Shown here in pieces: positions 6,560 through 22,601 of a stretch of DNA of 22,601 nucleotides. Under the pieces are notes generated by a model. That model was not told the origin of the DNA. It saw only the letters and a list, made by a program, of their open reading frames with translations, and did no database searches. The stretch is from positions 1 to 22,601 of IMG/VR virus record IMGVR_UViG_3300043437_000055; one strand, given 5' to 3'. The position numbers and the translations under genes are program-made. This DNA comes from a virus. Numbering within the stretch: position 1 is the stretch's first letter; the number at the start of each line of letters is the position of its first letter.

Positions 6560-6988
6560 ATGAAACCTAAACTAATAGAAACACCCGAAAAGCTATATTC
6601 ACTATTTGAAGAATATAAAGAATACCTAAAGACGAATCCAAGAACAATTGATAAAGCACTACAAAGTGGTAAGATAGCTAAAGAAACATTAAGAGTTCCA
6701 TTAACAATGGATGGTTTCGAAATATTTGGATTTCAAAAAGGGTTTACAATTGAACATTATTTTAGAAATAGTAATGATTCGTATGGGGAATATTGCGGTA
6801 TCTGCTCTATAATAAAGAAAGAAATACGCGCAGACCAAATCGAAGGTGGTATGGTTGGACAATACAATCCTTCAATCACGCAGCGTTTAAACAACCTTAC
6901 TGAAAAGACTGACATTACAACCGATGGTAAAGGAATCAATGAAATCAAGGTTAATATTATAAAACCAAGTGACACAAATGTAAACTAA
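6560..6988 (+). CDS. terS: Terminase small subunit
   Basis: A 142-residue DNA-packaging protein. The pattern TPEKLYSLFEEYKEYLKTNP, then PLTMDGFEIFGF, IEHYF, YCGICSIIKKEIRADQIEGG and YNPSITQRLNNLTEKTD is that of the phage gp3/terminase small subunit family, which recognises the phage DNA and presents it to the large subunit. The spacing of these elements is normal for the family, including the short disordered end. It precedes the large terminase gene by a 53-nt gap, as expected. The ATG follows AACACGAA. Confidence 0.88.
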   Translation: MKPKLIETPEKLYSLFEEYKEYLKTNPRTIDKALQSGKIAKETLRVPLTMDGFEIFGFQKGFTIEHYFRNSNDSYGEYCGICSIIKKEIRADQIEGGMVGQYNPSITQRLNNLTEKTDITTDGKGINEIKVNIIKPSDTNVN

Positions 6989-7041
6989 TTATAAAGCACT
7001 ATATAGGGTAAGTATAACCAAAACGTGAAAAATGTGTGCAA

Positions 7042-8193
7042 ATGGAGTTAAATAGTACAATTATCTTTGAAAAGAACTTTAACGCGCTTCAAAATAATGG
7101 AGTGCGTTTTGTCATTAATGAAGGTGGTTCACGTTCAAGTAAGACTTATTCGCTTTGCCAATTACTAATCGTTTATAGTTTACAAAACCCGAACAAGGTA
7201 GTTTCGATAATTAGAAAAACTTTTCCTGCGTTACGTGCTACGGTAATGCGTGACTTCTTCGAAATACTCAAAGACTTAGAAATCTATTCACAGGAACGCC
7301 ATAACAAGTCAGAACATATCTACACGTTTGAAAATGGTTCGATAGTTGAATTCTTTTCTGTAGATGACGAACAAAAGATTCGTGGACGTAAAAGGGATGT
7401 CGCTTGGTGTAATGAAGCGAATGAACTTTATTACGATGACTTTACGCAATTGAATATGCGTACTGAGTTTAAATTGATATTTGATTATAACCCGTCTGAA
7501 AGTTCAAGTTGGTTATATGAGTTACCAAAAGACGAAAGCACGTTAATTAAATCTACTTACAAAGACAATCCGTTTTTACCTGAAAGCATTAAAAAACAAA
7601 TCGAAGATTTAAAACGAACCGATGAATCACTTTATCAAATTTATGCACTTGGTGAAAAAGCGATTAGCAAATCTAATATTTACTCGAACTGGCATTTCTT
7701 GAATCATAGACCTTCAAAGTTCGTTAACTACGTTTACGGATTAGACTTCGGATATAATCACCCTACTGCATTGGTTCGGGTTTATTGGGTTGACAATGAC
7801 ATCTTCATAGAAAAGGTAATTTACGAAAGCTATTTAACTACAACGAACTTAATCGACAAGATGAATCAGTTAGGAGTAGAAAAAAGCGTAACGATATTAG
7901 CCGACTATTCACGCCCCGAAATAATAGCAGAAATGAATAACGCAGGGTTTGACGTTCAAAACGCGAATAAGGTAGTTAAAAAAGGAATAGATAACATTAA
8001 AACGTTCGGTGTATTTTGTGAAGATTCAAAAGAAATTAAAAAGGAATACGATAACTACAAATGGAAAAAGGTAGGCGATATAATCACGGATGAACCTATC
8101 AAATTATTTGACGATGCTATGGATGCAATTCGTTACGCAGTTACTCATATTAGACAAGAATATTACACTGACGATAGTTACTTCGCCTTCTAA
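7042..8193 (+). CDS. terL: Terminase large subunit (PBSX/Terminase_3 type)
   Basis: A 383-residue packaging motor with both expected domains. The ATPase has a Walker A-like GGSRSSKT (28-35) and a Walker B region DVAWCNEANE (119-128). The RNase H-like nuclease has GLDFGYNHPTAL with Asp235, ADYSRPE with Asp288 and DDAMDAIRYA with Asp361. It cuts and pumps DNA into the prohead through the portal. A GTG at 7036 is in frame, but the ATG at 7042 is preferred. The length is slightly short for the family but complete. Intergenic 6989-7041 shows no clear promoter. Confidence 0.95.
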   Translation: MELNSTIIFEKNFNALQNNGVRFVINEGGSRSSKTYSLCQLLIVYSLQNPNKVVSIIRKTFPALRATVMRDFFEILKDLEIYSQERHNKSEHIYTFENGSIVEFFSVDDEQKIRGRKRDVAWCNEANELYYDDFTQLNMRTEFKLIFDYNPSESSSWLYELPKDESTLIKSTYKDNPFLPESIKKQIEDLKRTDESLYQIYALGEKAISKSNIYSNWHFLNHRPSKFVNYVYGLDFGYNHPTALVRVYWVDNDIFIEKVIYESYLTTTNLIDKMNQLGVEKSVTILADYSRPEIIAEMNNAGFDVQNANKVVKKGIDNIKTFGVFCEDSKEIKKEYDNYKWKKVGDIITDEPIKLFDDAMDAIRYAVTHIRQEYYTDDSYFAF

Positions 8194-8222
8194 ACATAAA
8201 CACGAAAAAACTTAATATTGTT

Positions 8223-9824
8223 ATGGCATATCGAGAAAGACAAAAGATTAGTCAAATGACCCCTAAAGGGTCTGATTTAGAAGCTACGGATTTAGTAGAA
8301 GTTAGCGTTTTACAAAGTGGTTCTTACGTAACAAAATCAATCACGGGTCAAGAAATAATAAACGCTACGGGTGGTGGTGGTTCGGGTTATGTTCCATACA
8401 CTGGCGCAAATCAAAATGTAGATTTAGGAGAATACGAATTAAAAGCAGGTCAATTAACTTTAGATGTTTCACCAACGGGAACGGCTGCAGTAGGAACGAC
8501 ACGATGGAATGACACGATTGGGAGTTCTGAAACAACTTTAAAAGGTGGTTCGGTAATTCTTAAAAATGGTGTTGATTTAGTTGCTCGTGTGGTTAACAAG
8601 GTCACTCCGAATGCTACATTAACAAAAGCTAATTATACTGCGGTTCGTGTTTCGGGCGCACAGGGTCAAAGATTAGCCGTTGCATACGCACAAGCTAATA
8701 ATGATAATAATTCAGCCGACACGATAGGATTAGTAACTGAAACAATTGCAACGAATCAAGAAGGTTTCATAATCACGGTTGGACAAATCGAAGACATAAA
8801 TACAACGGGAAGTTTACAAAGCGAAACTTGGGCAGATGGTGACGTTCTTTATTTATCTTCTACGGTAGCGGGAGCAATTACAAACATTAAACCAACTGCA
8901 GCAACCGCACACATCGTAATAATCGGGTACGTTGAATACGCACACGCGGTACACGGAAAAATCTATGTTAAGATAATGAACGGGTGGGAGTTAGACGAAC
9001 TTCATAATGTTTATATTGACCCTGCGACATTAGCTAATAATGATGCGCTTGTTTATGAAAGTGCAACACAACTATGGAAAAATAAAGTTGTTACAAGTAG
9101 TTTAGCAGTAGGAACAAGTCCGATAAGTTCAGGAACAATTGGACGCGTATTATTTCAAGGTGCGGGTAATGTATTGCAACAAGATTCAAATTTATTTTGG
9201 GACAATACAAATAAAAGACTTGGAATAGGTGCAACACCTTCAACAAGTGTTCCATTGGATGTAAGGTCACAAGGAACATTATCAACTGATGTAGGTTTTA
9301 GAGTTAGGAATTCTGCAAATACTGCTAACTTGTTTGATGTTCAAGGTGATGGAGTTGCTAATGTTAGAACAAGAATGGTGTGTGGGTTTTCGGGAATGAC
9401 ATCCACAGGTGGAGCATTGCACGTTTACGCAGGTAATAGTAGTGATTTTGCAGCAAGGTTTTTCAATACGTCAGGACTTTCATTTTTAAATATTAGAACG
9501 ACAGGTAATGGTTGTGAAATGCAGTTAAATGATGCCGCAGGAAGTCCTGGTGTAACTTTAAATGGTATATTTTCAAATGCAATTACATTAGCTGATTCTC
9601 GTAATATTCTTTTTGGAACGGGAGGAGGTACTAAAATAGCAAGTGCAACAAATCAAAAGTTTGCATTTTGGAATGCAACACCAATAGTACAACCAACAAC
9701 AGCAGTTGCAGCAGCAACATTGGTAGGTGGTGGAGGAACTACAATAACGGCAACCGATACATTTGATGGTTACACTTTACAACAGATAGTAAAAGCATTA
9801 AGGAATACAGGATTATTAGCATAA
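8223..9824 (+). CDS. Tail fibre / receptor-binding-like structural protein
   Basis: A 533-residue protein rich in Gly, Thr, Ala and Asn. Residues 56-80 (YVPYTGANQNVDLGEYELKAGQ) are the classic fibre repeat opener found in phage tail proteins, and later LGIGATPSTSVPLDVRSQG plus FRVRNSANTANLFDVQGDG resemble trimeric beta-helix fibre segments. The end (TFDGYTLQQIVKALRNTGLLA) looks like a conserved C-terminal trimer cap. It probably contacts the host surface. Unusually, it follows the large terminase directly rather than lying at the far end of the tail genes. The exact receptor role is inferred. Confidence 0.82.
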   Translation: MAYRERQKISQMTPKGSDLEATDLVEVSVLQSGSYVTKSITGQEIINATGGGGSGYVPYTGANQNVDLGEYELKAGQLTLDVSPTGTAAVGTTRWNDTIGSSETTLKGGSVILKNGVDLVARVVNKVTPNATLTKANYTAVRVSGAQGQRLAVAYAQANNDNNSADTIGLVTETIATNQEGFIITVGQIEDINTTGSLQSETWADGDVLYLSSTVAGAITNIKPTAATAHIVIIGYVEYAHAVHGKIYVKIMNGWELDELHNVYIDPATLANNDALVYESATQLWKNKVVTSSLAVGTSPISSGTIGRVLFQGAGNVLQQDSNLFWDNTNKRLGIGATPSTSVPLDVRSQGTLSTDVGFRVRNSANTANLFDVQGDGVANVRTRMVCGFSGMTSTGGALHVYAGNSSDFAARFFNTSGLSFLNIRTTGNGCEMQLNDAAGSPGVTLNGIFSNAITLADSRNILFGTGGGTKIASATNQKFAFWNATPIVQPTTAVAAATLVGGGGTTITATDTFDGYTLQQIVKALRNTGLLA

Positions 9825-9835
9825 AAATAAAAAAG

Positions 9836-10147
9836 ATGGCACTAATTATTAAAGCAAAACAAGACAAAACAATTACAATTTCAGGAACTGATTTAAAACT
9901 TTCAGAAGTTTATGGGCGTATTGAGTTTGTAGGTCGTGCAAACGGAACTACATTAGAAATTGCTACAACAACATTTGTAAGTAGAGCAACGTTTGAAGAA
10001 GGTAAACCAGTATTTACTGACATTCCAAGTGGAAACATAAACGCAACGATTGAACCGAGTGAAGAACAAAGTTTAGACACTGCGCACAAATACGCAAAAT
10101 TAGCATATGAACAAGAAGGTTATGAAGTAGTAATTGACTTAGAATAA
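9836..10147 (+). CDS. Small virion-region protein
   Basis: A 103-residue protein starting MALIIKAKQDKTIT. It is beta-rich (LKLSEVYGRIEFVGRANGTTLEIATTTFVSR) with an acidic helical end (AHKYAKLAYEQEGYEVVIDLE). It sits 11 nt after the fibre gene and its stop abuts the next ATG, so it probably belongs to the distal-tail or fibre assembly set. No named family is recognised. Confidence 0.7.
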   Translation: MALIIKAKQDKTITISGTDLKLSEVYGRIEFVGRANGTTLEIATTTFVSRATFEEGKPVFTDIPSGNINATIEPSEEQSLDTAHKYAKLAYEQEGYEVVIDLE

Positions 10148-11638
10148 ATGGCGATAACAATAATAGCGGGAACGCAAAATCTAACACCTGCATACAATCC
10201 TATAAAATGGATTATAGATTCTGATATTAAAAACTACGATGGCTTTCGATACGTCTTTATAATCAAAGATGTAGCAGATAATGTTATCGCTGAATATCGT
10301 GTTTTACCAAATTACGGAACGGGTTATGGTGAACAAGATTTATCGAAGCTATTAAGTAATTATGTGTCTTTTGATTTAGATACTACTTCAACAAATTTTT
10401 ATAACGCGCCTAATTCCGTGTTTACTTATAAGGTAGATATGGGCGAAGAATACACGACACGTGTACCATATACATCTACTTTAGTCGATAGTTCGGGTAA
10501 TGTTCGAATCAATGTAACAAATACATTTGTAGCGGGTGATAAAATAAACATTAAACAAGCGGATAATGGAGTAGCAAATCCATACTTAGAAGGTTTGTTT
10601 ACCGTGTTAAGTGCAACGAGTACATATCTCGTAGTTAATTCTCTTTGGTCTTTAGTAACGAATGCAGCTATAGATGGAGTTATTACATATGCTGACAATA
10701 GAAAAACTTACAATTCATTAATCATATTAACCAAAGGTGTTTTTAATGGGGTGTTTCGATGGTTAGATTTTCCGACATATAACTATCTTGATTTCACTTT
10801 AAACGCAAACACGAAACGATTACTAACAAATCAACCTACAACGTTTTATAGTACGTTAGGTCAAGACATTTATCTAAACGCATTAAATCCAAGTGGTTCA
10901 CCCGATTATTTAATCTTCAAGAATTCAAACGGAGAATATTTTTACAAAACAATTTCGGGAACTGATATAATAAATCAAATTGCAGTAGGTGCAAATAACT
11001 ACGGGGTGTTAACTCCAATAGGTGCAGCAACGTTGCCAATGATAAAAACTGACACAACGTACTATGAAATTTACTATTCAAATGCAAACACGGGAACACC
11101 TGCTGAAAGGTCATTAACTTATCGTATTAACTTAGATACGAGAGTTCAAATATCTGAGTATCATTGTTTATTTTTAGATAGGTTAGGTTCGTTTAGTTCA
11201 TTTGCTTTTCAACTTAAAAACTACGAACGTGGTGAAGTATCACGTGATGAGTATAATAAAGACGTTACAGGATATGTTAGTGAAAGTGACCAATGGACGT
11301 ATGACACAATAGAAGACGGATTTAAATCGTTTAATATTAATATCAAAAAGACGATTGATTTAAACACGAATTGGATGTCTGAAGAAATGAACCGATATTT
11401 CGAAGAATTAATTACATCGCCACAAGTTTACTTAAAATTAGCATCTTATACGAATACGGAAAACTGGCTTTATCCTGAAGATGAAAGCGGTTGTCCTTTA
11501 AGAATTCCCGAAAGTACGCAATACCAACCCGTAATTATCACAAACACGAACTACGAAGTATTCCAACAAAGAAACAAGAATTTAATTAAGCATTCTATTT
11601 CGGTAAGATTAGCAAATCAAGATAACGTAAATGGTTAG
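10148..11638 (+). CDS. Distal-tail structural protein
   Basis: A 496-residue protein full of short beta strands and Asn, Thr and Tyr, with no enzyme motif. Sequence such as NYDGFRYVFIIKDV, FTYKVDMGEEY and GEVSRDEYNKDVTGYV suggests repeated beta-sandwich domains, as in distal-tail or baseplate proteins. Its neighbours (fibre upstream, a larger beta-rich protein and the tape measure downstream) support a place at the tail tip. It overlaps the next gene by 8 nt. Function inferred from composition and context. Confidence 0.72.
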   Translation: MAITIIAGTQNLTPAYNPIKWIIDSDIKNYDGFRYVFIIKDVADNVIAEYRVLPNYGTGYGEQDLSKLLSNYVSFDLDTTSTNFYNAPNSVFTYKVDMGEEYTTRVPYTSTLVDSSGNVRINVTNTFVAGDKINIKQADNGVANPYLEGLFTVLSATSTYLVVNSLWSLVTNAAIDGVITYADNRKTYNSLIILTKGVFNGVFRWLDFPTYNYLDFTLNANTKRLLTNQPTTFYSTLGQDIYLNALNPSGSPDYLIFKNSNGEYFYKTISGTDIINQIAVGANNYGVLTPIGAATLPMIKTDTTYYEIYYSNANTGTPAERSLTYRINLDTRVQISEYHCLFLDRLGSFSSFAFQLKNYERGEVSRDEYNKDVTGYVSESDQWTYDTIEDGFKSFNINIKKTIDLNTNWMSEEMNRYFEELITSPQVYLKLASYTNTENWLYPEDESGCPLRIPESTQYQPVIITNTNYEVFQQRNKNLIKHSISVRLANQDNVNG

Positions 11639-14423
11639 AATACAAATTGAAACAGGTTATTTAGACGTAAAAGAAGGCACGAACTTACCGCTTAACTTTC
11701 AAGTTGGTGATATACGCGATTTAACGCAGCGTAAAGGAACTTTCTCAAAGACGATAACACTAAGTGGTACAAAGAACAATAATCTTCTTTTAAACAACTA
11801 CTATGATGTTAATATAGGTGCGGGAACTTTTGACATTAACAAGTTGACAAAATGCACGATTCTACAAAATGGAATTCCTATTGTCACGGATGCTTTACTT
11901 CAATTAGTAAATGTTAAAAAGACGCAATTAACCGATGCTTATGAACAAGGCGTAGAATATGAAGTTTTAATTCGTGATTCACAAGCGGAGTTTTACACAA
12001 AGATTACGAACTTAGAATTAACTAATTTAGATTTCAGTGATTGTAATCACGATTTTAGCATTACTGCAATAACCGATAGTTGGGCGCACACACAAAGTGA
12101 CCATTATAAATATTTAATGCCGTATAATGACACGGCAAATTATACAATTAACCATTTTAAACCTGCTATTTATGCAAAGTCTTATTTTGATAGGATATTC
12201 CAAAACGCAGGATTTACATATCAATGGAGTGGATTGCAATCTGCACAATTCAATAAGTTATTAATTCCTTATAATGGCGATGTAAATAACTTTGATTATA
12301 GCGATTATGAAGTAAAAGCCGAAACAACTTATACAACAAGTTACGTTCAACCTATAGCGGGTTTAAATAGTTGGTTTTTACAAACAATTACTACTTGGAC
12401 AGAAACGCTTGATGTACAAAATATATTCAATCCTGCAACGGGAGTTTATGACGTACCATTTAACACGGATGTAAATCAAAGTCAAACGTATATATTCAAT
12501 TTTACATATGAATATGAAATCTATTTAGATAATACAAGTGGTGCAAATGCTGAATTACTTGTATTTAATCAATTTATTCAAAGTTATGTTGACGCGAATT
12601 TAGAATATCGTGTTATTTTTAGAGTAATAAAAAATGGTGTTTCAGCGGGTGCTTATGCTTTTGGAGCAGATATTGTAACTTATGTAGGTTCTACAATGAA
12701 TCCATTAGGAACAGGCACAACGAGTTTATTAAATGCTTCGGGTACTTCTTCTTTACCTTTTCCAGAAAGTGTTACATCAACTGATATTTTAGAAATACAA
12801 GTAGGCGTGTTGGCTACAATTCCAATTGCACAACAACAAGCTAACGGAATAACAAATCCACCAAGATGGCTAAATACAGGTTTGTCAGCAGTTCAAGTTA
12901 ACCCACAAGTAGATTTTACTTCGCTTCAAGTGTCAATTGTACCCACAAATAATATTCAAGTTCTTAATGGGGTTCAAGTGGTGAATGAATACATACCACA
13001 AAAGATTAAACAATCTGATTTTGTTAAAGCAATATTTCAGATGTACAATCTTTACGCATATCCGAACACGAACCAACCTAATGAACTTATATTAGTTCAA
13101 CGTGATGAATGGTATGATAACGGAATTGAAAAAGATTGGTCAACTAAACTTGCTAAAAATGTAGAACAACAACTTATATTTTTACCTGATTTAACAAAGA
13201 AAAAATTAAAGCTAACATACAAACAAGACGAAGACACTCCTAACAAAGTTTTTTTTCAAGCTACAAACGAAATCTATGGACAATTAGAATATACATTTGA
13301 TAATGAATATGTCAAAGACACGGACACAAAAGAATTATTATTTTCACCTACACCCGTAAATAAAACTACGTTTGATGCTTATTTACCAATGATTAATGGA
13401 ATAGCACCAAACACGAACATAAGAATATTATATGATGCAGGTTTACAAACGTGTCAACCATTTAATATTTACGAACAAGACACTACTGGTGTAACAGGAT
13501 TAACATCTTACCCACAAACGGGTCATTTTAATAATGCCTTAACTCCTACATTCGATATTAATTTTGGTGTCTGTGACTATTACTTTTATCAAACAAGTGT
13601 TTTAACAAACAATAATCTTTACAACTTATATTGGAGAAGAACCGTAAATCAAATCAATGTAGGTAAAATGCTTATCGCTTCTTTTCATTTAACTGAAGCT
13701 GACATTCAAACATTAAAACTTAATGATAAAATACGCATAGATAATTCGTGGTGGAATATTAATAAAATAATTGATTATAATGCTAACGATGAGGTTCTAA
13801 CAAAAGTCGAATTATTAAGTGTAGATACTGAAATAGAATTAGCTAATTTTCCTGAAGTAAATCCAAGACCTATCGGTGATATTCTTTCTGCATTGGGTGT
13901 GACAGAAATATTTACGGACATTAAAGACCAATCAAATATCAATTTAAGTTCGGGAAATGTAATAGTTTTAGGTAAAGGAAATGTAGTTACAGATAAATTA
14001 AAAGGTGTTGTTGTAGGCGATAATTTAAACGTAACTGAAAACGGTGTAACAACAACAAATTTACGTGTAACAGAAACGATAAATGGCGAATCCGTAACTG
14101 CTATTTTACCTACTTATAAAAAATATATTGCTACAATAAGTCAGACAGGAACATTAGACCCCGTTGTTACAATTCTTGAAAATACATTAGGTGGTATTGT
14201 ATGGACACGTAACTCTGCGGGTGTTTATACAGGAACGTTACCCGATGCTTTTCCTACACAAGCGAATGTTTATTTATATTTAAGCAATGCATTACAATCT
14301 AATTATGTGGCTATTTATAGAGTTTCAAATGATGTTATACAAATAATAACATCTGATTTTACTAATATAAGTCAAGATAATTATTTAGATTATAACACAA
14401 TAGAAATAAGAGTTTATCCATAA
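11631..14423 (+). CDS. Large tail-tip / baseplate-like protein
   Basis: A 930-residue protein, the largest in the window. Early it carries NFQVGDIRDLTQRKGTFSKT, then long beta-rich stretches with many Asn, Thr and Tyr. Residues from about 465 (IPQKIKQSDFVKAIFQMYN, then LILVQRDEWYDNG) resemble the hub-like part of distal-tail/tail-tip proteins that close the tube and hold fibres. The C-terminal part (SGNVIVLGKGNVVTDKLKG...) is a beta-repeat that may carry fibre or host contacts. It lies directly before the tape measure. Role inferred from position, size and composition. Confidence 0.75.
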   Translation: MVRIQIETGYLDVKEGTNLPLNFQVGDIRDLTQRKGTFSKTITLSGTKNNNLLLNNYYDVNIGAGTFDINKLTKCTILQNGIPIVTDALLQLVNVKKTQLTDAYEQGVEYEVLIRDSQAEFYTKITNLELTNLDFSDCNHDFSITAITDSWAHTQSDHYKYLMPYNDTANYTINHFKPAIYAKSYFDRIFQNAGFTYQWSGLQSAQFNKLLIPYNGDVNNFDYSDYEVKAETTYTTSYVQPIAGLNSWFLQTITTWTETLDVQNIFNPATGVYDVPFNTDVNQSQTYIFNFTYEYEIYLDNTSGANAELLVFNQFIQSYVDANLEYRVIFRVIKNGVSAGAYAFGADIVTYVGSTMNPLGTGTTSLLNASGTSSLPFPESVTSTDILEIQVGVLATIPIAQQQANGITNPPRWLNTGLSAVQVNPQVDFTSLQVSIVPTNNIQVLNGVQVVNEYIPQKIKQSDFVKAIFQMYNLYAYPNTNQPNELILVQRDEWYDNGIEKDWSTKLAKNVEQQLIFLPDLTKKKLKLTYKQDEDTPNKVFFQATNEIYGQLEYTFDNEYVKDTDTKELLFSPTPVNKTTFDAYLPMINGIAPNTNIRILYDAGLQTCQPFNIYEQDTTGVTGLTSYPQTGHFNNALTPTFDINFGVCDYYFYQTSVLTNNNLYNLYWRRTVNQINVGKMLIASFHLTEADIQTLKLNDKIRIDNSWWNINKIIDYNANDEVLTKVELLSVDTEIELANFPEVNPRPIGDILSALGVTEIFTDIKDQSNINLSSGNVIVLGKGNVVTDKLKGVVVGDNLNVTENGVTTTNLRVTETINGESVTAILPTYKKYIATISQTGTLDPVVTILENTLGGIVWTRNSAGVYTGTLPDAFPTQANVYLYLSNALQSNYVAIYRVSNDVIQIITSDFTNISQDNYLDYNTIEIRVYP

Positions 14424-14426
14424 GAT

Positions 14427-16580
14427 ATGAATGAAATAGAAGTTCCTTTAAAGATAACGGGCATAGGTGCAATTAAAAAAGAATTGCGAGAGTTAAAAGG
14501 TGAAATTGCAAATGCAACCGACCCCGAAGCACTGGCATCTTTAACGCACCGCGCGGGTGAACTAAAAGACCAATTAGCAGACGCAAACGAGCAAGTGAAT
14601 ATCTTTGCTTCGGGTTCAAAGTTCGAACAAGTAAGTAATGGATTAGGCTCAATAAAGGATTCTATAATGTCTTTAGATTTCGCAGAAGCGGGTCAAAAGG
14701 CTAAATTATTAACTACGTCTTTAAAGAATTTAAACCCTGCTGAATTCGCAGCACAATTTAAAGGATTCGGTCAAGTGATTATGTCAGTAGGTTCTGCCGT
14801 TGGAGTTCTTACAAGTCAATTTATAAAAATGGGAATAGCTTTATTAAGTAACCCTATCTTTTTATTAGTTGCCGTTATCGTTGCTATCGTTGCAGCTATT
14901 CTAATTTTCTTGCATAAAATGGGAATTTTAAAGAAAATCTTTGAAGTAATAATGATTCCTATTAACGCATTAATAGAAGGTTTTAAAGCATTAACAGATT
15001 GGATAGGTTTAACAAGTTACGCAGCAGAAGAAAACGCAGCTAAAACAGAAGAAGCAAATAAGAGAGTAGTCGAAAGCACGGATAAAAGAACACAAGCGGT
15101 TGTAGGATATTACGATTACGAAATCAAAATGTTTCAATTATATGGATTAAAAACTTTAGACTTAGAATTATCAAAAAGTAAGGCACTTGCTGAAGGTTCA
15201 AAGAAAAAAATTCAATCTGCAAAAGTCGCTTTAGATGCTGAATTACAATTAGGTGAAGATGCAGACCAAGAAAAAATTAAAAACTTACGTAAATCTATTG
15301 AAGAAGAAAACAAAATCATTATAGATGAAAGACGTAATAGGAATTATTTAGTAGCACAAGACGCGGTTAAAGAACGTGAAGACGCAAAGAAAAAATTAGA
15401 AGCAGATAAAAAAGCAGCTGAAGACGATGCTAAACAAAAAGCGGATGCAGCTAAAAAAGCAGCAGATGCAGCACGTAAATTTGCTGAAAATAGATTGAAT
15501 GCAGCACGAACGATTCGTGATATTGAAATAGCTTTAATCAAAGATGACAACGATAGAGAGGTTGCTACAATAAATGAAAAATATGCAAGGTTAATTCAAG
15601 ACACAAAGAAAAACGAAAACTTAACCAAAGCTGAAAAACTTAGATTACAGGCACTTTATAACGAGCAGTTAAAGGTTGAATTAGCTAATCAAGAAAAAAC
15701 GGTTTTAGACGCTGAAAAATCTAAACAAGAAAAGTTACTTGATTTAATCAAAGCAAATAACGAAGCACGACAACAAGCTGAAGAAGATTTCTTTGAAGTT
15801 TATCGAACTCAAGTAATGAGTAAAGAACAACAAGAAGTAGACGCAGTAAATGCAAAGTATTTTCAATTAATAGCAAAGGCAGAACAATACGGATTAGACA
15901 CAAAGATTTTAAAAGAACAACAAGAAAAAGAAGTTGCTGACATAACTAAAAAATACGCAGATGAACAAGCTAAAGCCGTAGCAGATGCAGAAGCTAAAAA
16001 ACGTCAAGCACAATTAGACACGGCAAACAATGCTTTAAGTATTGCGGAAAATTCAACTAAATCTATTCAAAATTTAGGTGATATTGCTTTTGCTGCTAAA
16101 ATGGCAAAAGTTAAAAAAGGAAGTAAAGAAGAAGAAGAACTTGCAAAGAAACAATTTAAGTTTAATAAAGCAATGCAATTAGCGGGTGCAATAGTTGACG
16201 CAGGAAAAGCAGTTACGGCATCTTTAGCAGCTTCGCCAGTAGCAATTGGTCCAGTACCCAATCCAATAGGTATTGCGTCACTTGCAACGGCTATAACAAC
16301 ATCAGCGTTGAATATTTCAAAGATAGCAGCAACACAATTTACTTCAACCGCAAGTGGTGGTGGTGGAGGTGCGACAACTGGTGTAGGAGCAGCATCTTCA
16401 ACGTCTACAACAGGAACTACACCTTCATTTAGTTTATTCGGTCAAGGTAACGACTTAAATAACGTAGGTGCGCCACAAACGCAAACAAATGAAATTACCG
16501 TGAATGCCGTAGTAAGTGAAACTGAACTAACAAATACGCAAAACAAAATAAAACAAATCAATAAAAACGCAACGTTATGA
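14427..16580 (+). CDS. Tail tape measure protein
   Basis: A 717-residue protein. It opens with VPLKITGIGAIKKELRELKG, the start pattern of many tape measures, followed by a hydrophobic segment at about 138-163 (FLLVAVIVAIVAAILIFL). Residues about 215-545 are a long Ala/Lys/Glu/Gln-rich helical region, the rod that sets tail length. A second hydrophobic Ala-rich part follows (AGAIVDAGKAVTASLAASP), then a Gly/Thr-rich tail. At about 0.15 nm per helical residue the tail would be near 108 nm if the whole chain acts as ruler; this is only a rule of thumb. It ends in an ATGA overlap with the next gene. Confidence 0.88.
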   Translation: MNEIEVPLKITGIGAIKKELRELKGEIANATDPEALASLTHRAGELKDQLADANEQVNIFASGSKFEQVSNGLGSIKDSIMSLDFAEAGQKAKLLTTSLKNLNPAEFAAQFKGFGQVIMSVGSAVGVLTSQFIKMGIALLSNPIFLLVAVIVAIVAAILIFLHKMGILKKIFEVIMIPINALIEGFKALTDWIGLTSYAAEENAAKTEEANKRVVESTDKRTQAVVGYYDYEIKMFQLYGLKTLDLELSKSKALAEGSKKKIQSAKVALDAELQLGEDADQEKIKNLRKSIEEENKIIIDERRNRNYLVAQDAVKEREDAKKKLEADKKAAEDDAKQKADAAKKAADAARKFAENRLNAARTIRDIEIALIKDDNDREVATINEKYARLIQDTKKNENLTKAEKLRLQALYNEQLKVELANQEKTVLDAEKSKQEKLLDLIKANNEARQQAEEDFFEVYRTQVMSKEQQEVDAVNAKYFQLIAKAEQYGLDTKILKEQQEKEVADITKKYADEQAKAVADAEAKKRQAQLDTANNALSIAENSTKSIQNLGDIAFAAKMAKVKKGSKEEEELAKKQFKFNKAMQLAGAIVDAGKAVTASLAASPVAIGPVPNPIGIASLATAITTSALNISKIAATQFTSTASGGGGGATTGVGAASSTSTTGTTPSFSLFGQGNDLNNVGAPQTQTNEITVNAVVSETELTNTQNKIKQINKNATL

Positions 16581-17029
16581 TAAGCTATCAAAGTTTAATA
16601 AATAAAATAATAGATTTTTACGATAATCATTTACAAGTTAAAAAAGTTGGTTCGGATTTTCGTGAACAATTAGAAAACTTTGCTACAAAAGACGAGAAAT
16701 ATCCTTTGGTTTATATTTGTCCTGTAGATGCAATTCCGAGTGAAATGGGTTTTACTACTGAAATAAGTTTAGAAATTTATTGCTTTGATATTATACAAAA
16801 AGACCGAGCAAATATCAATGTAATTCTAAGTGATTGCCATTTAATATTAAACGATTTGTATAATTGGTTTATAAACTCAAATGATTTTAGTTTTGATATA
16901 GTAGGACAACCGACAATGACACCTTTAAATAATGATTTATTAGATTATGCTGCAGGTTGGTTAATGACTATAACGTGTTCAATTAATAATTACACTGATT
17001 GTCAAGTTCCTAAACAAAACGAAGAATAA
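16577..17029 (+). CDS. Tail completion / head-tail connector-like protein
   Basis: A 150-residue protein. The pattern of an N-terminal helix (SLINKIIDFYDNHLQVKKV), a run of strands (YPLVYICPVDAIPS, EISLEIYCFDIIQ) and DYAAGWLMTITCSI is like that of tail terminator or completion proteins, which cap the tube and dock it to the head. It begins in an ATGA overlap with the tape measure, and a gp10-like gene follows. The assignment rests on fold-like pattern and context, not on an invariant motif. Confidence 0.65.
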   Translation: MISYQSLINKIIDFYDNHLQVKKVGSDFREQLENFATKDEKYPLVYICPVDAIPSEMGFTTEISLEIYCFDIIQKDRANINVILSDCHLILNDLYNWFINSNDFSFDIVGQPTMTPLNNDLLDYAAGWLMTITCSINNYTDCQVPKQNEE

Positions 17030-17044
17030 AAATAATATAGATAT

Positions 17045-17458
17045 ATGCCTGATAAAGAATTTAAACTAAAGTACAAGATTCGTAATAAAGCAGCTAACGT
17101 TCTTCGTAAGGTAATTAAAGAAGATGCGTTAATAGATACTGGTACTTTATATGAATCAATCCGTATAAATGCAAAATTCACTACTGAAGGTAATCTTAGA
17201 ATCGAAATTCTCGCAGCTTATTACTTTGGTTTCTTAAACAATGGAACAATATCAATCGAACCTTATCATTTAGTTAGACAATTCAATAGACGTTTAGAAA
17301 GCGAAGGTATTATAGCAGAAATGTATGCGCAATATATTGAATGGCTTTCAAGTAAATACCCGCTTGTTCAAGTTGCTGGAATGTTACGTAAAAAGCAAAA
17401 CGTAATCTATGACTTTAATCCGTTATTCGGTGAGTTTTGGAGTGCTTTAGAATACTAA
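17045..17458 (+). CDS. HK97 gp10-like head-tail joining protein
   Basis: A 137-residue protein. DALIDTGTLYESIRINAKF, then LRIEILAAYYFGFLNNGT, fits the gp10-type connector pattern in which a D-T/S-G-x-L element precedes beta strands. It starts 15 nt after the preceding gene. Its stop TAA at 17456-17458 overlaps the stop of the opposite-strand gene (CTAA at 17455-17458), and no terminator lies between the convergent genes, so transcripts probably overlap. Confidence 0.65.
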   Translation: MPDKEFKLKYKIRNKAANVLRKVIKEDALIDTGTLYESIRINAKFTTEGNLRIEILAAYYFGFLNNGTISIEPYHLVRQFNRRLESEGIIAEMYAQYIEWLSSKYPLVQVAGMLRKKQNVIYDFNPLFGEFWSALEY

Positions 17459-18219
17459 ACGTTCAATTCTTTTTTCATTCCTAAAAAGTTAAACACAAGT
17501 ATTAACGGAAGTTCACAAACGGCATTGAATTTAGTTAAATCTTCTTGGCATAAATGCCAAATAAGTTGTTCCCACGCCCATTTCTTTTGCTTTTTTTCTT
17601 CTTCAACTGCTTTTAAATCTTCGGCATCCATATTAGAATCAAGTTCGAAATCGTCTTCATAGGATTCGGTCATTAAGTTTTTGTATTGTTCTATGATTGT
17701 TTCTCTAAATTTTATGTATTCGGGTAATAATCCAAAAACATCAGTGATATTAAAATCTAAAAACCAATCTAACCTATCATTTGAATTATAATTGTAAGGT
17801 TCAAGTATTTCGTCACTCCATTCATTAACACGAAAACGTCTATAAAGAATTGCAACGATGTTAGGTAGTTTTTTTATGTAGTCATCAGAGAAATATGCTT
17901 CTAAACTTATGAATTCACCTAACGTTATTTTGTTAAATGGTTTTAATTTATATTCACCTATTTGAGATTTATAATTTTTAGGCGGTTCATCACGTATAAA
18001 TTTAACTTCTAAAAGTAGTTCTTCAAGTTCTTCGATAGTTATATCGTCTATGTCTTCGGGATAACAATCAAGTAAAGTACAAAGAATATCTATTTGGTAA
18101 TTAAAAACACCGTCTTCTTCAGATAGTGTTTTAAGTTCCATAAATGTTTCAATCGTTATTTGATTCCACGCTTTCGGCAGCTTGTTTAGTCGCGTGTTTT
18201 GTAATTGTATCTGTGACAT
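17455..18219 (-). CDS. Probable tail assembly chaperone (downstream copy)
   Basis: A 254-residue acidic protein on the minus strand. Its first part (WNQITIETFMELKTL, DDITIEELEELLLEV, then IGEYKLKPFNKITLG) is similar to the protein encoded just upstream, and the C-terminus (KKWAWEQLIWHLCQEDLTKFNAVCELPLILVFNFL) looks like a helical end typical of phage tail assembly chaperones. Such proteins keep the tape measure soluble during tail assembly. The ATG at 18219 lies 71 nt inside the upstream gene, in the +1 frame. No signal peptide or enzyme motif is present. Function is inferred from pairing, position near tape measure and composition. Confidence 0.6.
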   Translation of the reverse strand: MSQIQLQNTRLNKLPKAWNQITIETFMELKTLSEEDGVFNYQIDILCTLLDCYPEDIDDITIEELEELLLEVKFIRDEPPKNYKSQIGEYKLKPFNKITLGEFISLEAYFSDDYIKKLPNIVAILYRRFRVNEWSDEILEPYNYNSNDRLDWFLDFNITDVFGLLPEYIKFRETIIEQYKNLMTESYEDDFELDSNMDAEDLKAVEEEKKQKKWAWEQLIWHLCQEDLTKFNAVCELPLILVFNFLGMKKELNV

Positions 18220-18691
18220 AATTTAAATAAGGGATTGAAATATCAGCAGGTTGTGTTTTAAATAGTTTTGATTTATGTTTTAAATGCGCTGAATCGTAAT
18301 GTTCCGTATTGCTTAAATCCGTTCGTTTAAACATCAAAGCCATAATATCGGACACGGAATTTTTATTTTCTTTAGTAATCATTTTCTCGATTAGCTTCGT
18401 ATCTTTTACCGATAGTTTTAATTCGGCTTTATATGTATATCCGTCTATTTCTATTTCTCCGATAGGGTCTTTAGGTTCGTAGTTATCCGTATTAAATTCT
18501 TTTGTCTTTTCAACGAAGTATTGAAAGTCATCCCATTCATCTTCGTCAATTCCTACAACTTCAAAAACTTTAATTTGTTTTTCGATGTTATCGAGTTCTT
18601 TGTTGTTATGAATTGCAGAAATCTTTTCGAATTCTTCAATAGTTATTTCGTTCATTTTATTGGCAATTTGCCTTCCAAGTACTTCAATCAT
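18149..18691 (-). CDS. Probable tail assembly chaperone (upstream copy)
   Basis: A 180-residue acidic protein starting MIEVLGRQIANKMNEI. NEITIEEFEKIS matches NQITIETFMELK of its downstream neighbour, and IGEIEIDGYTYKAELKLSVKD parallels IGEYKLKPFNKITLGEF, so the two are probably duplicated relatives. A two-gene overlapping chaperone set beside the tape measure recalls lambda G and GT. Here the second gene has its own ATG, so a frameshift fusion is not needed, though possible. A Bacteroidota -7 motif lies about 17 nt upstream of the start. Confidence 0.6.
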   Translation of the reverse strand: MIEVLGRQIANKMNEITIEEFEKISAIHNNKELDNIEKQIKVFEVVGIDEDEWDDFQYFVEKTKEFNTDNYEPKDPIGEIEIDGYTYKAELKLSVKDTKLIEKMITKENKNSVSDIMALMFKRTDLSNTEHYDSAHLKHKSKLFKTQPADISIPYLNYVTDTITKHATKQAAESVESNND

Positions 18692-18707
18692 AATTATAAT
18701 TTTTGAA

Positions 18708-18715
18708 CAAATATA
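18708..18715 (-). promoter_or_regulatory. Minus-strand -7 promoter element for chaperone pair
   Basis: CAAATATA on the plus strand reads TATATTTG on the minus strand, an exact TAnnTTTG match. It lies about 17 nt before the ATG at 18691, giving a short leader. No good TTG is found 19 nt upstream, so the promoter may be weak or activator-dependent. It shares a 46-nt gap with the start of the plus-strand protease gene. Confidence 0.6.
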
Positions 18716-18737
18716 AATAAAATATAATATAGTGAGA

Positions 18738-19712
18738 ATGACAAAGGATTTACCTATTTACAAAATCACGATAGACCCCGAATATTCCGATGGCGAAGAT
18801 TTAGGAATCGAACAAATAGCGTTTACTTCCAATCCTGCTATTAAGATAAAAGGAATGGCGTTTAAACAAGAATATTTAGTTTATTCAGATGACCTAAAAT
18901 ATCGGATAACTGCTCCAGCTATGATTCCAATGGAGATTTATAGGCGTGACGATGAAACTGGTGAATACTACGTTCAATTTACGGCAGAAACTATCGAGCA
19001 AATCCACGCTAAGTTTATGCAAGACTTGAAGAATCGAGATATCTTTAATTTAGAACACGACCAAGCTAAACAAGTTCCCGCATATATTTTAGAAAGTTGG
19101 ATTGTAGACGAACCCAAACACGATAAAGCATTTAGTACTTTCGGGATTGAAGTTCCTAAAGGTACATTAATGATAACAGCGCAAGTTACGGATAAAGATT
19201 ACTACAATGAATTAGTAAAAGCCGAACAAGTTGGTTTTTCTATTGAAGGTTTCTTAGGTCTTAAATTAAGTAATCAAATAAATAAATATAATATGAACAA
19301 ATTACCCGATGGGGAACACTTAATCGAAGGTAAAATCTATGTCGTAAAAGGCGGTGAGATTATCGAGATTAAAGATGCTCCCAAAGAAGAGGTTGCGATG
19401 GAGGATTCAGTAGTCGAAGAAGAAGTGACTACCGAAACTGAACCTATTGACGAACAACCTGAACCCGAAGAACTTGTTAAAGAAGAAGAAATGGCGGTTG
19501 ACGTTGCTACGGATGCTGAAGCAGTTTTAGCGATTGTTGCTCCTGTACTTGAAGAACAAGTTAACAACCTTCTTAAAATTATTGCTGACTTAAAATCCCA
19601 AATGGAAGAAATGTTAGCAGAAAAAACGGAAGACGAAATCGAAATGAAGTCTGAAGTTAAAATGAGTATTGCTGAAAAGTTCAGCGCATTAAATAAATTA
19701 AGTAATAACTAA
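18738..19712 (+). CDS. XkdF-like prohead protease with scaffold-like C-terminus
   Basis: A 324-residue protein. The N-terminal part fits the XkdF-type phage serine protease: KGMAFK, YRITAPAMIPMEIYRR (55-70), YVQFTAETIEQIHAKFM, NLEHD with His107, and GFSIEGF with Ser168, the likely catalytic pair. From about 215 the chain becomes highly acidic (EEVTTETEPIDEQPEPEELVKEEE) and then helical (EEQVNNLLKIIADLKSQMEEML), the style of an internal scaffold removed on maturation. A GTG at 18732 is in frame, but the ATG at 18738 is preferred. The major capsid gene follows 18 nt later. Confidence 0.85.
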   Translation: MTKDLPIYKITIDPEYSDGEDLGIEQIAFTSNPAIKIKGMAFKQEYLVYSDDLKYRITAPAMIPMEIYRRDDETGEYYVQFTAETIEQIHAKFMQDLKNRDIFNLEHDQAKQVPAYILESWIVDEPKHDKAFSTFGIEVPKGTLMITAQVTDKDYYNELVKAEQVGFSIEGFLGLKLSNQINKYNMNKLPDGEHLIEGKIYVVKGGEIIEIKDAPKEEVAMEDSVVEEEVTTETEPIDEQPEPEELVKEEEMAVDVATDAEAVLAIVAPVLEEQVNNLLKIIADLKSQMEEMLAEKTEDEIEMKSEVKMSIAEKFSALNKLSNN

Positions 19713-19730
19713 AATCAAATAAAAACAAAA

Positions 19731-20663
19731 ATGGAAAGAAAATTAAAATTTGATTTGGATATCGAAAACAATGCTTTGCTTTGTCCAAATCCTAACGAGT
19801 TTTATTCTCGTGCTTATCTAACGGCTGATGTTGCTGATTCTTATCGTGCTTTGCCGGGCATTAAGTCAAAAACTAAATTAGCAAACGTTGCTTTCGGTTC
19901 AATATTACAAGCATCTACCTGTAACTTTAATGCCCCTACTGATACTTTAGACGCTATCGAAATCGATGTTTGTGCGTTTTCTGCAATGGCACAAATTTGT
20001 CAATTCGATTTAGAGCAGTCTTTTGTTGCTTTGCAAATGACACAAGGTTCTAACGGTGATTTCACCGTAGCTTCTTTTATGAACTACTATTGGGACACAA
20101 TGGCTAAGCAAATCGAAGAAGATATCGAATTAATCAGATGGCAAGGTGACACAACAAGCGAAAACCCGCTTTTAGCTTTGTGTGATGGTCATTTAGTTAA
20201 ACTTTGTTCTGATGGTGCTAATTTAGCTTATTCAAATGGTGGTGCTGTGAACAGCGGTAACGTTCTTACTACATTGAATTCAGTTGTTGGTGGTTTACCT
20301 GCTTCAGTTAGATTCAAGAAAGCTGATTTAAGAATCCGTGTTTCTGCTAATGTTGCTGCTGCTTACGAACTTGCTGCTGCTTCAGGTAACACATTAACTT
20401 ATGTTACTGCTCCATTAGGAATGACTTACTTAGGAATTAAAGTAATCGTTTGCGAAGGTATGCCTGATAACACAATCGTTGCTTCTTTGAAAGATGATTT
20501 AGTTTATGCATTCGATGCTGAAGGTGATTCTAAAGCGTTAAAAGCGGTTAACTTAACTGATACGGTTGCAGAACCATATATCCGTACACGTGCAAATGTT
20601 AAAGCAGGTTTTTATCATACAAACCCCGAGCAAATTTCAGTTTGGGCAGCTTGTTTTGACTAA
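19731..20663 (+). CDS. Major capsid protein
   Basis: A 310-residue protein directly after the protease/scaffold gene, the usual place of the major capsid. It has a helical start (LTADVADSYRALPGI), a long middle helix-rich region (SFMNYYWDTMAKQIEEDIELIRWQGD), and beta strands near TLTYVTAPLGMTYLGIKVIVCEGMPDN, compatible with an HK97-type fold. Alanine and valine codons are largely GCT and GTT, unlike the GCA-rich tape measure, as expected for a very highly expressed gene. Several Cys residues (PNPNEFYS-region and ICQF, LCDG, KLCSDG) are notable. Assignment rests on order, length and fold-like pattern. Confidence 0.82.
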   Translation: MERKLKFDLDIENNALLCPNPNEFYSRAYLTADVADSYRALPGIKSKTKLANVAFGSILQASTCNFNAPTDTLDAIEIDVCAFSAMAQICQFDLEQSFVALQMTQGSNGDFTVASFMNYYWDTMAKQIEEDIELIRWQGDTTSENPLLALCDGHLVKLCSDGANLAYSNGGAVNSGNVLTTLNSVVGGLPASVRFKKADLRIRVSANVAAAYELAAASGNTLTYVTAPLGMTYLGIKVIVCEGMPDNTIVASLKDDLVYAFDAEGDSKALKAVNLTDTVAEPYIRTRANVKAGFYHTNPEQISVWAACFD

Positions 20664-20680
20664 TCAAAATAAATAATAAC

Positions 20681-20698
20681 GGGGGTGTAAAAACCCCC
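20681..20698 (+). terminator. GC hairpin after the capsid gene
   Basis: GGGGGT (20681-20686) pairs with ACCCCC (20693-20698) around GTAAAA. Only a weak T stretch follows (TATTTAAAT), so it may be a partial terminator or an RNA stabiliser that sets capsid transcript levels above the next gene. Confidence 0.55.
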
Positions 20699-20729
20699 TA
20701 TTTAAATAACTAAAAAAAATATATATCTT

Positions 20730-21248
20730 ATGTCGTGTGAAGCACTGGAATCCATTGTAAAAAGTTGTGATAACAACAGCGGTGGGATTTACAAGGTATG
20801 GATTAATCAACAAGATAACATATCGAGCATTGGTCTTGATTCTACGTTAACTTGGACAATTGATTCAATCGCCTTGAATGACCCTTTAAACGTATATACA
20901 GAATTTGAAATCCGTCGCAATACGGGTTCTTATACTGAAGAAGCAGCTATTGACCTTGTTAATGGTTCTTCTTACTACACTCAAACAATTACTTTAATGT
21001 TCCATAGACGTGACCAATCTAAGTCACAAGCTATTAAAGTTCTTGGAGCAGGTCAGCAATACTTGAATGCAATCATTCAAGATGCTAACGGTAAGTATTG
21101 GTACTTCCCTTATTTGCAATTAACAGGTTCTTCTGAAGGTTCGGGAACGGCTCGTGCGGATGGTAGTAAATACCAAATTATTTTAACTGCGGAAAACGAG
21201 TTTTTGTCATATGAGGTTTTGGAAAGTGCGGTTCAATCAGTAATTTAA
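20730..21248 (+). CDS. Probable tail tube / major tail protein
   Basis: A 172-residue beta-rich protein. The run GGIYKVWINQQDNISS, YTEFEIRRNTGSYTEE, YYTQTITLMFHRRDQS, QYLNAIIQDANGKYWYF and LTGSSEGSGTARADGSKYQIILTAENE reads as a beta sandwich with a long loop, typical of siphophage major tail or tube proteins. Codon choice is capsid-like, suggesting high expression. It stands alone between two hairpins (20681 and 21273), as a high-copy gene may. Tail tube is the best guess; another capsid-decoration or connector protein cannot be excluded. Confidence 0.62.
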   Translation: MSCEALESIVKSCDNNSGGIYKVWINQQDNISSIGLDSTLTWTIDSIALNDPLNVYTEFEIRRNTGSYTEEAAIDLVNGSSYYTQTITLMFHRRDQSKSQAIKVLGAGQQYLNAIIQDANGKYWYFPYLQLTGSSEGSGTARADGSKYQIILTAENEFLSYEVLESAVQSVI

Positions 21249-21272
21249 TTCTGCATATCTCCATAGAAAATT

Positions 21273-21299
21273 AGCATCCTTCGGGGTGCTTTTTTTTTT
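21273..21299 (+). terminator. Intrinsic terminator with UUCG tetraloop
   Basis: AGCATCC (21273-21279) pairs with GGGTGCT (21284-21290), with one G-U pair, closed by the very stable C-UUCG-G tetraloop, and is followed by a T run to 21299. It is the strongest terminator in the window and ends the capsid/tail-tube transcript. Confidence 0.9.
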
Positions 21300-21330
21300 A
21301 AACAAAAAGACGAACTAATTTAATATAGTT

Positions 21331-21672
21331 GTGATATACATAAATAAAGACGAAGTAAATAATATTGTGTTGACGTTAAGCGAAGTTAGTACGTTAACGA
21401 ATCCTTTTTATTTATTCGTGTTTCAAAATGAAATGAATCCAGAAAGCGACCCTATTTTATTTACTACTACTGATATTTCTGCTTATCCTGAAAGATACAA
21501 TCAATTCTTGTTAGATGAACCAGTAGACGTAGAATTAGTAAAAGGTCAATATTCATATTATGTTTATGAATCAATCACTGCACCAACTGAAATAGAAGAT
21601 ACTACAGGTGATGTTATCGAAGAAGGTAGAATGGTTGTTTCGGGTGCTATTGTAAATTCAATATACGATTAA
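21331..21672 (+). CDS. Hypothetical protein before portal
   Basis: A 113-residue acidic, beta-rich protein (FYLFVFQNEMNPESD, GQYSYYVYESITAPTEIED, EEGRMVVSGAIVNSIYD). The only early start is a GTG at 21331; the next in-frame ATG is at 21433. No strong promoter is visible between the terminator and this start. The gene ends 2 nt before the portal ATG, so it is probably co-translated with the portal and may be a connector or virion accessory protein. Family not recognised. Confidence 0.65.
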   Translation: MIYINKDEVNNIVLTLSEVSTLTNPFYLFVFQNEMNPESDPILFTTTDISAYPERYNQFLLDEPVDVELVKGQYSYYVYESITAPTEIEDTTGDVIEEGRMVVSGAIVNSIYD

Positions 21673-21674
21673 TT

Positions 21675-22601
21675 ATGGCGTGGTACGATATATTTAAACA
21701 AAGTGAAAAACAAAATATTGAAGTCGTTGAAGGCTATCAAAGTTTTAGTACACCTTTTGCTAAAATTGGCGGTGGAAATCTTTCGCTACCTTATGTAAAC
21801 GGGCGATATCAAGTCGCGGGATACGTGCCATTTGGAGTTGAAAATCTTTATCCTGAAACTTTAAACCAAATGTACTATTCAAGTCCGTTACACGGGGCAA
21901 TAGTAGACTATAAAGTTAATGCAGTAATCGGTGGTGGTTTTACAATTCAAACTGAAAAGCTAACAAACGAAGAAAAATTAGAACTTTACGCATTCGAAAA
22001 GAAGATAAAACTAAAAAAGGTAGCTGCGATAGTTACAAAGCAGTTAGTAATCCATAATCGGGTATACTTTAAATTATGCTTTTCAGAGCGTGGAAAACTT
22101 ACCAAAGTAGAAAACCTTTCACCCGAAAAATTAAGACGTTCTAAAGACGGGAAAACGTACTTTATATGCGAAGATTGGGCATCAAGAATAGATGTTTTTG
22201 AAATAAAACCATATCACCCATTAAGTAACGAGTACGAACAGCTATATATTTACGAATTACCTTGCATCGGTCAAGATTACTACCCATTACCGCAGTATTC
22301 AAGTGCGTTAAACTTTGCTTTTTTAAGTGGTGAACTTAGTTATTTAGCGAAATCAAACATTCAGAACGCTGTTTTTCCTTCTTTTGCTATGATGTTCCCT
22401 AAAAGACCGCAAAGCGAAGAAGAAAAGAACGTGCTACGAAGAACCATTGACAAGTTAAAAGGCGCGGAAAACGCAGGAAAAGCAGTTGCATTCTTTGCTA
22501 ATTCAGCAGAGCAAATGCCAAAGATTGAAAGTTTACCTACGAATTCAAACGATAAGTTATTTCAAGAAGCGTCAGCGTTAAATACCGAACAAATATGTTT
22601 T
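21675..22601 (+). CDS. Portal protein (5' part, runs off window)
   Basis: An open frame of 309 codons from ATG 21675 to the window end with no stop. It starts MAWYDIFKQSEKQNIEVV and contains NLYPETLNQMYYSSPLHGAIVDYKVNAVIGGGF, a pattern of phage portal proteins, followed by strands and helices (LYIYELPCIGQDYYPLPQYSSALN, SYLAKSNIQNAVFPSFAMMFPKRPQSEEE) of the portal wing/stem. The portal is the dodecameric ring through which DNA is packaged by terminase. Its place after the capsid and tail-tube genes, far from the terminase, is unusual. Confidence 0.82.
   Translation, partial: MAWYDIFKQSEKQNIEVVEGYQSFSTPFAKIGGGNLSLPYVNGRYQVAGYVPFGVENLYPETLNQMYYSSPLHGAIVDYKVNAVIGGGFTIQTEKLTNEEKLELYAFEKKIKLKKVAAIVTKQLVIHNRVYFKLCFSERGKLTKVENLSPEKLRRSKDGKTYFICEDWASRIDVFEIKPYHPLSNEYEQLYIYELPCIGQDYYPLPQYSSALNFAFLSGELSYLAKSNIQNAVFPSFAMMFPKRPQSEEEKNVLRRTIDKLKGAENAGKAVAFFANSAEQMPKIESLPTNSNDKLFQEASALNTEQICF

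Follow-up and report, generated by a model that had tools for sequence, protein, structure and literature searches.

Tail-before-head order of virion genes in a putative freshwater Bacteroidota siphophage family and in cultured Bacteroidota phages

Tail-first and head-first phages of Bacteroidota

The textbook arrangement of virion genes, head then tail, often guides the annotation of uncultured phages. Virion proteins act in trans, so no particular gene order is required for their assembly. Comparison of gene order with phages of Bacteroidota, which the original prediction had proposed as a check, showed that tail-first and head-first types both exist. P12024S and P12024L are Nonlabens (Persicivirga) phages of Inhavirus (NC_018271; Kang et al. 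2012, doi 10.1128/JVI.01327-12), and Cellulophaga phage phi46:1 (KC821611), whose record cites MS/MS for several virion genes, has the circular order protease, capsid, tube, portal, structural gene, lysis, large terminase subunit (TerL), tail, and tape measure, an order like that described below. Six gut Bacteroidales phages were also checked (BT2, SJC23, BC679P1, BV57P1, BU241P1, and PM682P3), and these run, in the same manner, from the small terminase subunit (TerS) and TerL through the tail genes, tape measure, protease position, capsid, tube-like genes, a small gene, and the portal to lysis. The head-first type is represented by Muminvirus, Riemerella phage RAP44, and Olleya phage Harreka_1, with FPSV-S20 as a further example. 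In the literature searched we found no paper remarking on the tail-first order, and by "known" we mean that it is visible in deposited annotated genomes.

The present study concerns a linear IMG/VR fragment of 22,601 bases, hereafter the window, which spans the whole of its record. It was compared with 20 near-full-length IMG/VR relatives of 28.5–30.9 kb, each taken whole, and, for gene adjacency, with 160 shorter IMG/VR loci from many samples; identical ends of 91–127 bases in 12 of the 20 relatives indicate closure into a circle. Our main reading, to which we give a probability of about 0.9, is that the window is part of a genome of ~29–30 kb from an abundant uncultured family of freshwater Bacteroidota siphophages, and that its tail-first order has been passed down as one block, is common to P12024S, phi46:1, and the gut Bacteroidales phages, and came about through block rearrangement on one strand and not through a single inversion. 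A departure from what is seen in Bacteroidota phages is not supported, given that P12024S, phi46:1, and many gut Bacteroides phages are tail-first; what is new is the abundant uncultured family, the gene order itself being already known. A single scan of IMG/VR recovered at least 599 relatives of the capsid, GenBank phage records yielded no match to the window capsid or to its partial portal sequence, and a scan of genome contigs for prophages or hosts returned nothing beyond a single phage contig, which had been binned with a pond MAG.

Gene order in the window and its relatives

Family searches confirmed the roles of TerS, TerL, tape measure, HK97-gp10, protease, capsid, and portal. On the plus strand, TerS (6560–6988; phrog_606, 7e-9) is followed by TerL (7036–8193; PF04466, Terminase_3, 5e-31; phrog_2, 1e-38); PF03354 was considered as the terminase family and rejected as the wrong one. 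The plus-strand tail block then begins with a probable fibre protein (8223–9824), a call that is backed by its similarity to proteins annotated as tail fibres (among them that of Pseudomonas phage Rollin, 8e-20), and a small protein of 103 aa without a family match (9836–10147). Two putative distal-tail proteins come next: p496 (10148–11638), which is kept in 20/20 relatives and has a weak profile match to P12024S gp44 in the equivalent place, and p930 (11631–14423), a candidate tail tip protein with a weak profile match to P12024S gp45. The last ~150 residues of p930 (about 779–929) are 32–46% identical to structural or fibre proteins of the Flavobacterium phages pippi, lotta, and elemo, which suggests a swapped tip domain. 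The tape measure protein (14427–16580; phrog_9483, 2e-12) paired in hhalign with that of a Bacteroides phage (98%) and with P12024S gp49 (96.5%). It is followed by p150 (16577–17029), a probable tail terminator judging from its position and a weak match to P12024S gp41, and by an HK97-gp10-like tail completion protein (17045–17458; PF04883, 27 bits against a cut-off of 21.4).

The head block, also on the plus strand, comprises a head maturation protease of the XkdF type (18732–19712; PF14550, 3e-11), the major capsid protein (19731–20663; phrog_1623, 4e-14), a tail tube protein of 172 aa (p172; 20730–21248), the small conserved protein p113 (21331–21672), and the 5' part of the portal gene, which is cut by the window end (21675–22601; phrog_11226, 3e-21). 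The best Foldseek matches of p172 were phage tail tube proteins (E 1e-3, probability 1.00), its predicted fold being tail-tube-like with the tubes of Milano, Mu, and SPP1 as the top PDB matches at modest scores. Directly before the portal stands p113 in 58 of the 66 loci that have it, and genes of 99–125 aa hold this position in P12024S, BV57P1, PM682P3, and BU241P1. The portal profile had no match in the PDB; reassignment of the portal to another role, which the original prediction had named as a possible refutation, was excluded. In the relatives, a head-tail adaptor-like gene comes after the portal.

Tail genes precede head genes in the window, the 20 relatives, and the 160 loci, in agreement with the inverted order originally proposed. 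The relatives and loci share, almost without exception, the order TerS, TerL, fibre (in a variable slot), p496, p930, tape measure, p150, gp10, a pair of minus-strand genes designated CHb and CHa, protease, capsid, tube, p113, portal, and adaptor, the tail and head blocks being joined at p150-gp10-protease. Adjacent pairs in the 160 loci were almost invariant, examples being capsid-p172 (71), protease-capsid (68), p172-p113 (66), gp10-CHb (61), and CHa-protease (61). Against a textbook ranking of our own, the ten assignable genes gave a Kendall tau of −0.78, and 10 of 20,000 random permutations were equally reversed. The order consists of one block of tail genes and, after it, one of head genes; it is not a strict mirror image, as protease, capsid, and tube keep their usual direction. 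The placement of the terminase first likewise depends on where the circular map is cut. The fibre gene is the only recurrent variation in order, lying after TerL in one clade (24 loci) and between p150 and gp10 in another (27 loci after p150); the relatives G018 and G006 are examples for the alternative slots.

A gene pair on the opposite strand

The least ordinary feature of the locus is the pair of opposite-strand genes, CHa (18149–18691, minus strand) and CHb (17455–18219, minus strand), which runs counter to the original claim that the strand is constant: the window and all relatives carry both genes in minus orientation, CHb in 65/65 loci and CHa in 62/62 loci. The two genes are paralogous (profile match 92%) and overlap in different frames, CHb having its own start; a frameshift of the lambda G/GT type was considered and rejected, there being no conserved slippery site. 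The genes had been called chaperones, an identity that is unproven: family searches and PDB fold and sequence searches gave nothing significant for either protein, and a tblastn search of phages gave no match to CHb. In a search of viral folds, the C-terminal part of CHa/CHb weakly resembled a viral "tail assembly chaperone" (probability 0.92, but E 0.81), and we refer to both as putative chaperones. Their layout also differs from that of the lambda G and GT chaperones, which are encoded between the tube and tape measure genes, on the strand of these neighbours, and are expressed with a programmed frameshift, whereas CHa and CHb occupy the minus strand, flanked by gp10 and the protease. In the viral fold search, CHb additionally matched many uncharacterised phage proteins, including the 175-aa P12024S protein I6R9M9 (4e-6); going by its length, this is probably gp38, whose gene comes directly after TerL and to which the CHb profile also has a weak match (2.9e-4).

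The -7 consensus of Bacteroidota housekeeping promoters is TAnnTTTG (PMC7366714, PMC2483708). A promoter-like element of this type (TATATTTG, 18708–18715, minus strand) precedes the start of CHa by 24 nt in the window, and TAnnTTTG was found upstream of CHa in 19/19 relatives tested as well, at −24 in nearly all, while being almost absent before other virion genes. In the circular genomes, the strict plus-strand TATATTTG occurred 56 times outside and 14 times inside the virion region, which takes up ~58% of the genome. The total count of TAnnTTTG in the window is at chance level, such that only the fixed position before CHa and the regional skew are informative. Plus-strand copies of TATATTTG were also observed in the early region at 1159, 1957, 4777, and 5979, the first three ~20–40 nt upstream of ORF starts. 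The pattern of -7-type elements supports a Bacteroidota host, and the element before CHa suggests that the pair may be transcribed apart from the virion operon.

A single late transcription unit on the plus strand would read the tail genes, then the head genes, and then lysis. As gp10 and CHb are convergent and overlap by 4–12 nt, read-through on the plus strand would be antisense to the pair, which would have its own promoter. We tentatively propose, as a possibility that we hold at somewhat less than even odds, that a gene that appears to be on the plus strand after TerL in P12024S was here duplicated, flipped between the blocks, and placed under a host-type -7 promoter, splitting its expression from the virion operon and so creating an early-expressed or timing-controlled factor within the late region. 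If this is true, the plus-strand virion operon must read through CHa and CHb in antisense.

Probable inheritance of the order as a block

Since the virion genes, one pair excepted, share one strand, no single inversion explains their order, as the original prediction had correctly stated. That the tail and head blocks were joined in the wrong order by assembly error or chimerism can be dismissed almost entirely; the window is a linear fragment from a metagenomic assembly, but the junctions are identical in the 20 full-length relatives, which were assembled independently and of which 12 are circular, and in the 160 loci, and cultured isolates have the tail-first order too, so that this refutation anticipated by the original prediction was itself refuted. 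A mirrored look could also be an artefact of cutting a circular map at TerL, the portal, lysis genes, and TerL being near neighbours here as elsewhere. The relatives are circular, and phi46:1 has lysis genes after its portal and TerS and TerL after these, as such an artefact would have it; rotation, however, leaves the cyclic order TerL-tail-head-portal unchanged, head-first phages read TerL-portal-head-tail, and rotating a head-first genome does not yield the tail-first cycle. In the window family and P12024S, the interval from portal to TerL also holds the replication genes. We consider this explanation very improbable; the cyclic orders differ under any rotation, and therefore a true block rearrangement remains.

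The tail-first order could alternatively be a separate, convergent invention, its likeness to the gut Bacteroidales phages being superficial. The trees of terminase and portal bear on this, and their construction, also proposed originally, gave conflicting placements of P12024S. In the TerL tree, the window family falls in one clade with the gut Bacteroidales phages (support 100/98) and P12024S falls with the head-first RAP44 (97/90), whereas in the portal tree P12024S groups with the window family (97/98) and the flavobacterial head-first portals are separate (100/100); several branches are long, and the deeper history is uncertain. Convergence is favoured by the four changes that the tail-first label needs on the TerL tree and by the weak homology of the capsids and proteases of gut Bacteroides phages to those of the window family (hhalign E about 1e-3 to 2e-4). 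Yet the conflict between the trees indicates that the terminase was exchanged independently of the virion block, and such exchange accounts for the TerL tree; moreover, five head genes are shared with P12024S in identical order with strong scores, the portal family phrog_11226 occurs in both the window and the gut phages, and in P12024S, as in several gut phages, a gene of ~100–125 aa likewise stands before the portal. We thus regard convergence as unlikely. The simplest reading of the sequences is that the tail-head block was inherited together while TerL, its exchangeable neighbour, would have been replaced. On these comparisons, the order probably has one origin in all tail-first phages, which stays unproven because the homology to gut capsids and proteases is weak.

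The virion genes of the family form a tail block and then a head block (protease, capsid, tube, p113, portal, and adaptor), and the circle closes via lysis and replication genes to TerS and TerL; we infer that a rearrangement of these blocks on one strand gave the tail-first order. A large group of Bacteroidota phages from lakes and the gut is arranged tail-then-head, so annotation by position would mislabel its members. The mismatch between the terminase and portal trees further shows that such phages are misplaced when the terminase tree is used by itself.

Comparison with known phages

By their head proteins, P12024S and P12024L are the closest cultured relatives of the window family. P12024S has homologues of the protease, capsid, tube, portal, and adaptor genes in identical order, downstream of TerL and the tail; family profiles matched the protease gp01 (3e-17), capsid gp02 (3e-16), tube gp03 (3e-12), portal (6.5e-28), and adaptor-like gene (1.7e-16), and profile comparison placed counterparts of TerL, p496, p930, and the tape measure in order. 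Erf and a YqaJ-type exonuclease are also shared. The differences are that P12024S has a TerL from another lineage, grouping with RAP44, that its CHb homologue appears to follow TerL directly on the plus strand, and that its genome is 35.7 kb as opposed to ~29–30 kb in the window family. The tail block is arranged differently as well: P12024S and the Bacteroides phages have terminator and gp10-type genes before p496, whereas p150 and gp10 come after the tape measure in the window. With TerL in a different clade and a portal only about 24% identical to that of P12024S, the window falls outside Inhavirus.

The portal and TerL of phi46:1 are homologous to those of the window, but phi46:1 has a ClpP-type protease, integrase genes, and lysis genes between portal and TerL. 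The gut Bacteroidales phages have the phrog_11226 portal where tested (BV57P1, 9e-40; BT2, 9e-44), a family that was found in 137 Bacteroidales records, with the BT2-type portal in 149 GenBank records; unlike the window, they carry one to three tube-like paralogues, lack the minus-strand pair, and have genomes of 34–38 kb. Muminvirus, RAP44, and Harreka_1 are, like the window phage, Bacteroidota siphophages with a related PBSX/Terminase_3 TerL, but are head-first with the portal directly after TerL. The window also departs from the canonical lambda/HK97-type order, in which the portal directly follows TerL and head precedes tail, its portal lying 14.6 kb downstream of TerL beyond the tail block. 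It belongs instead with the tail-first Bacteroidota siphophages, sharing with them the cyclic order TerL, tail, tape measure, protease, capsid, tube, and portal on one strand (CHa and CHb excepted) and a portal of the phrog_11226/P12024S family.
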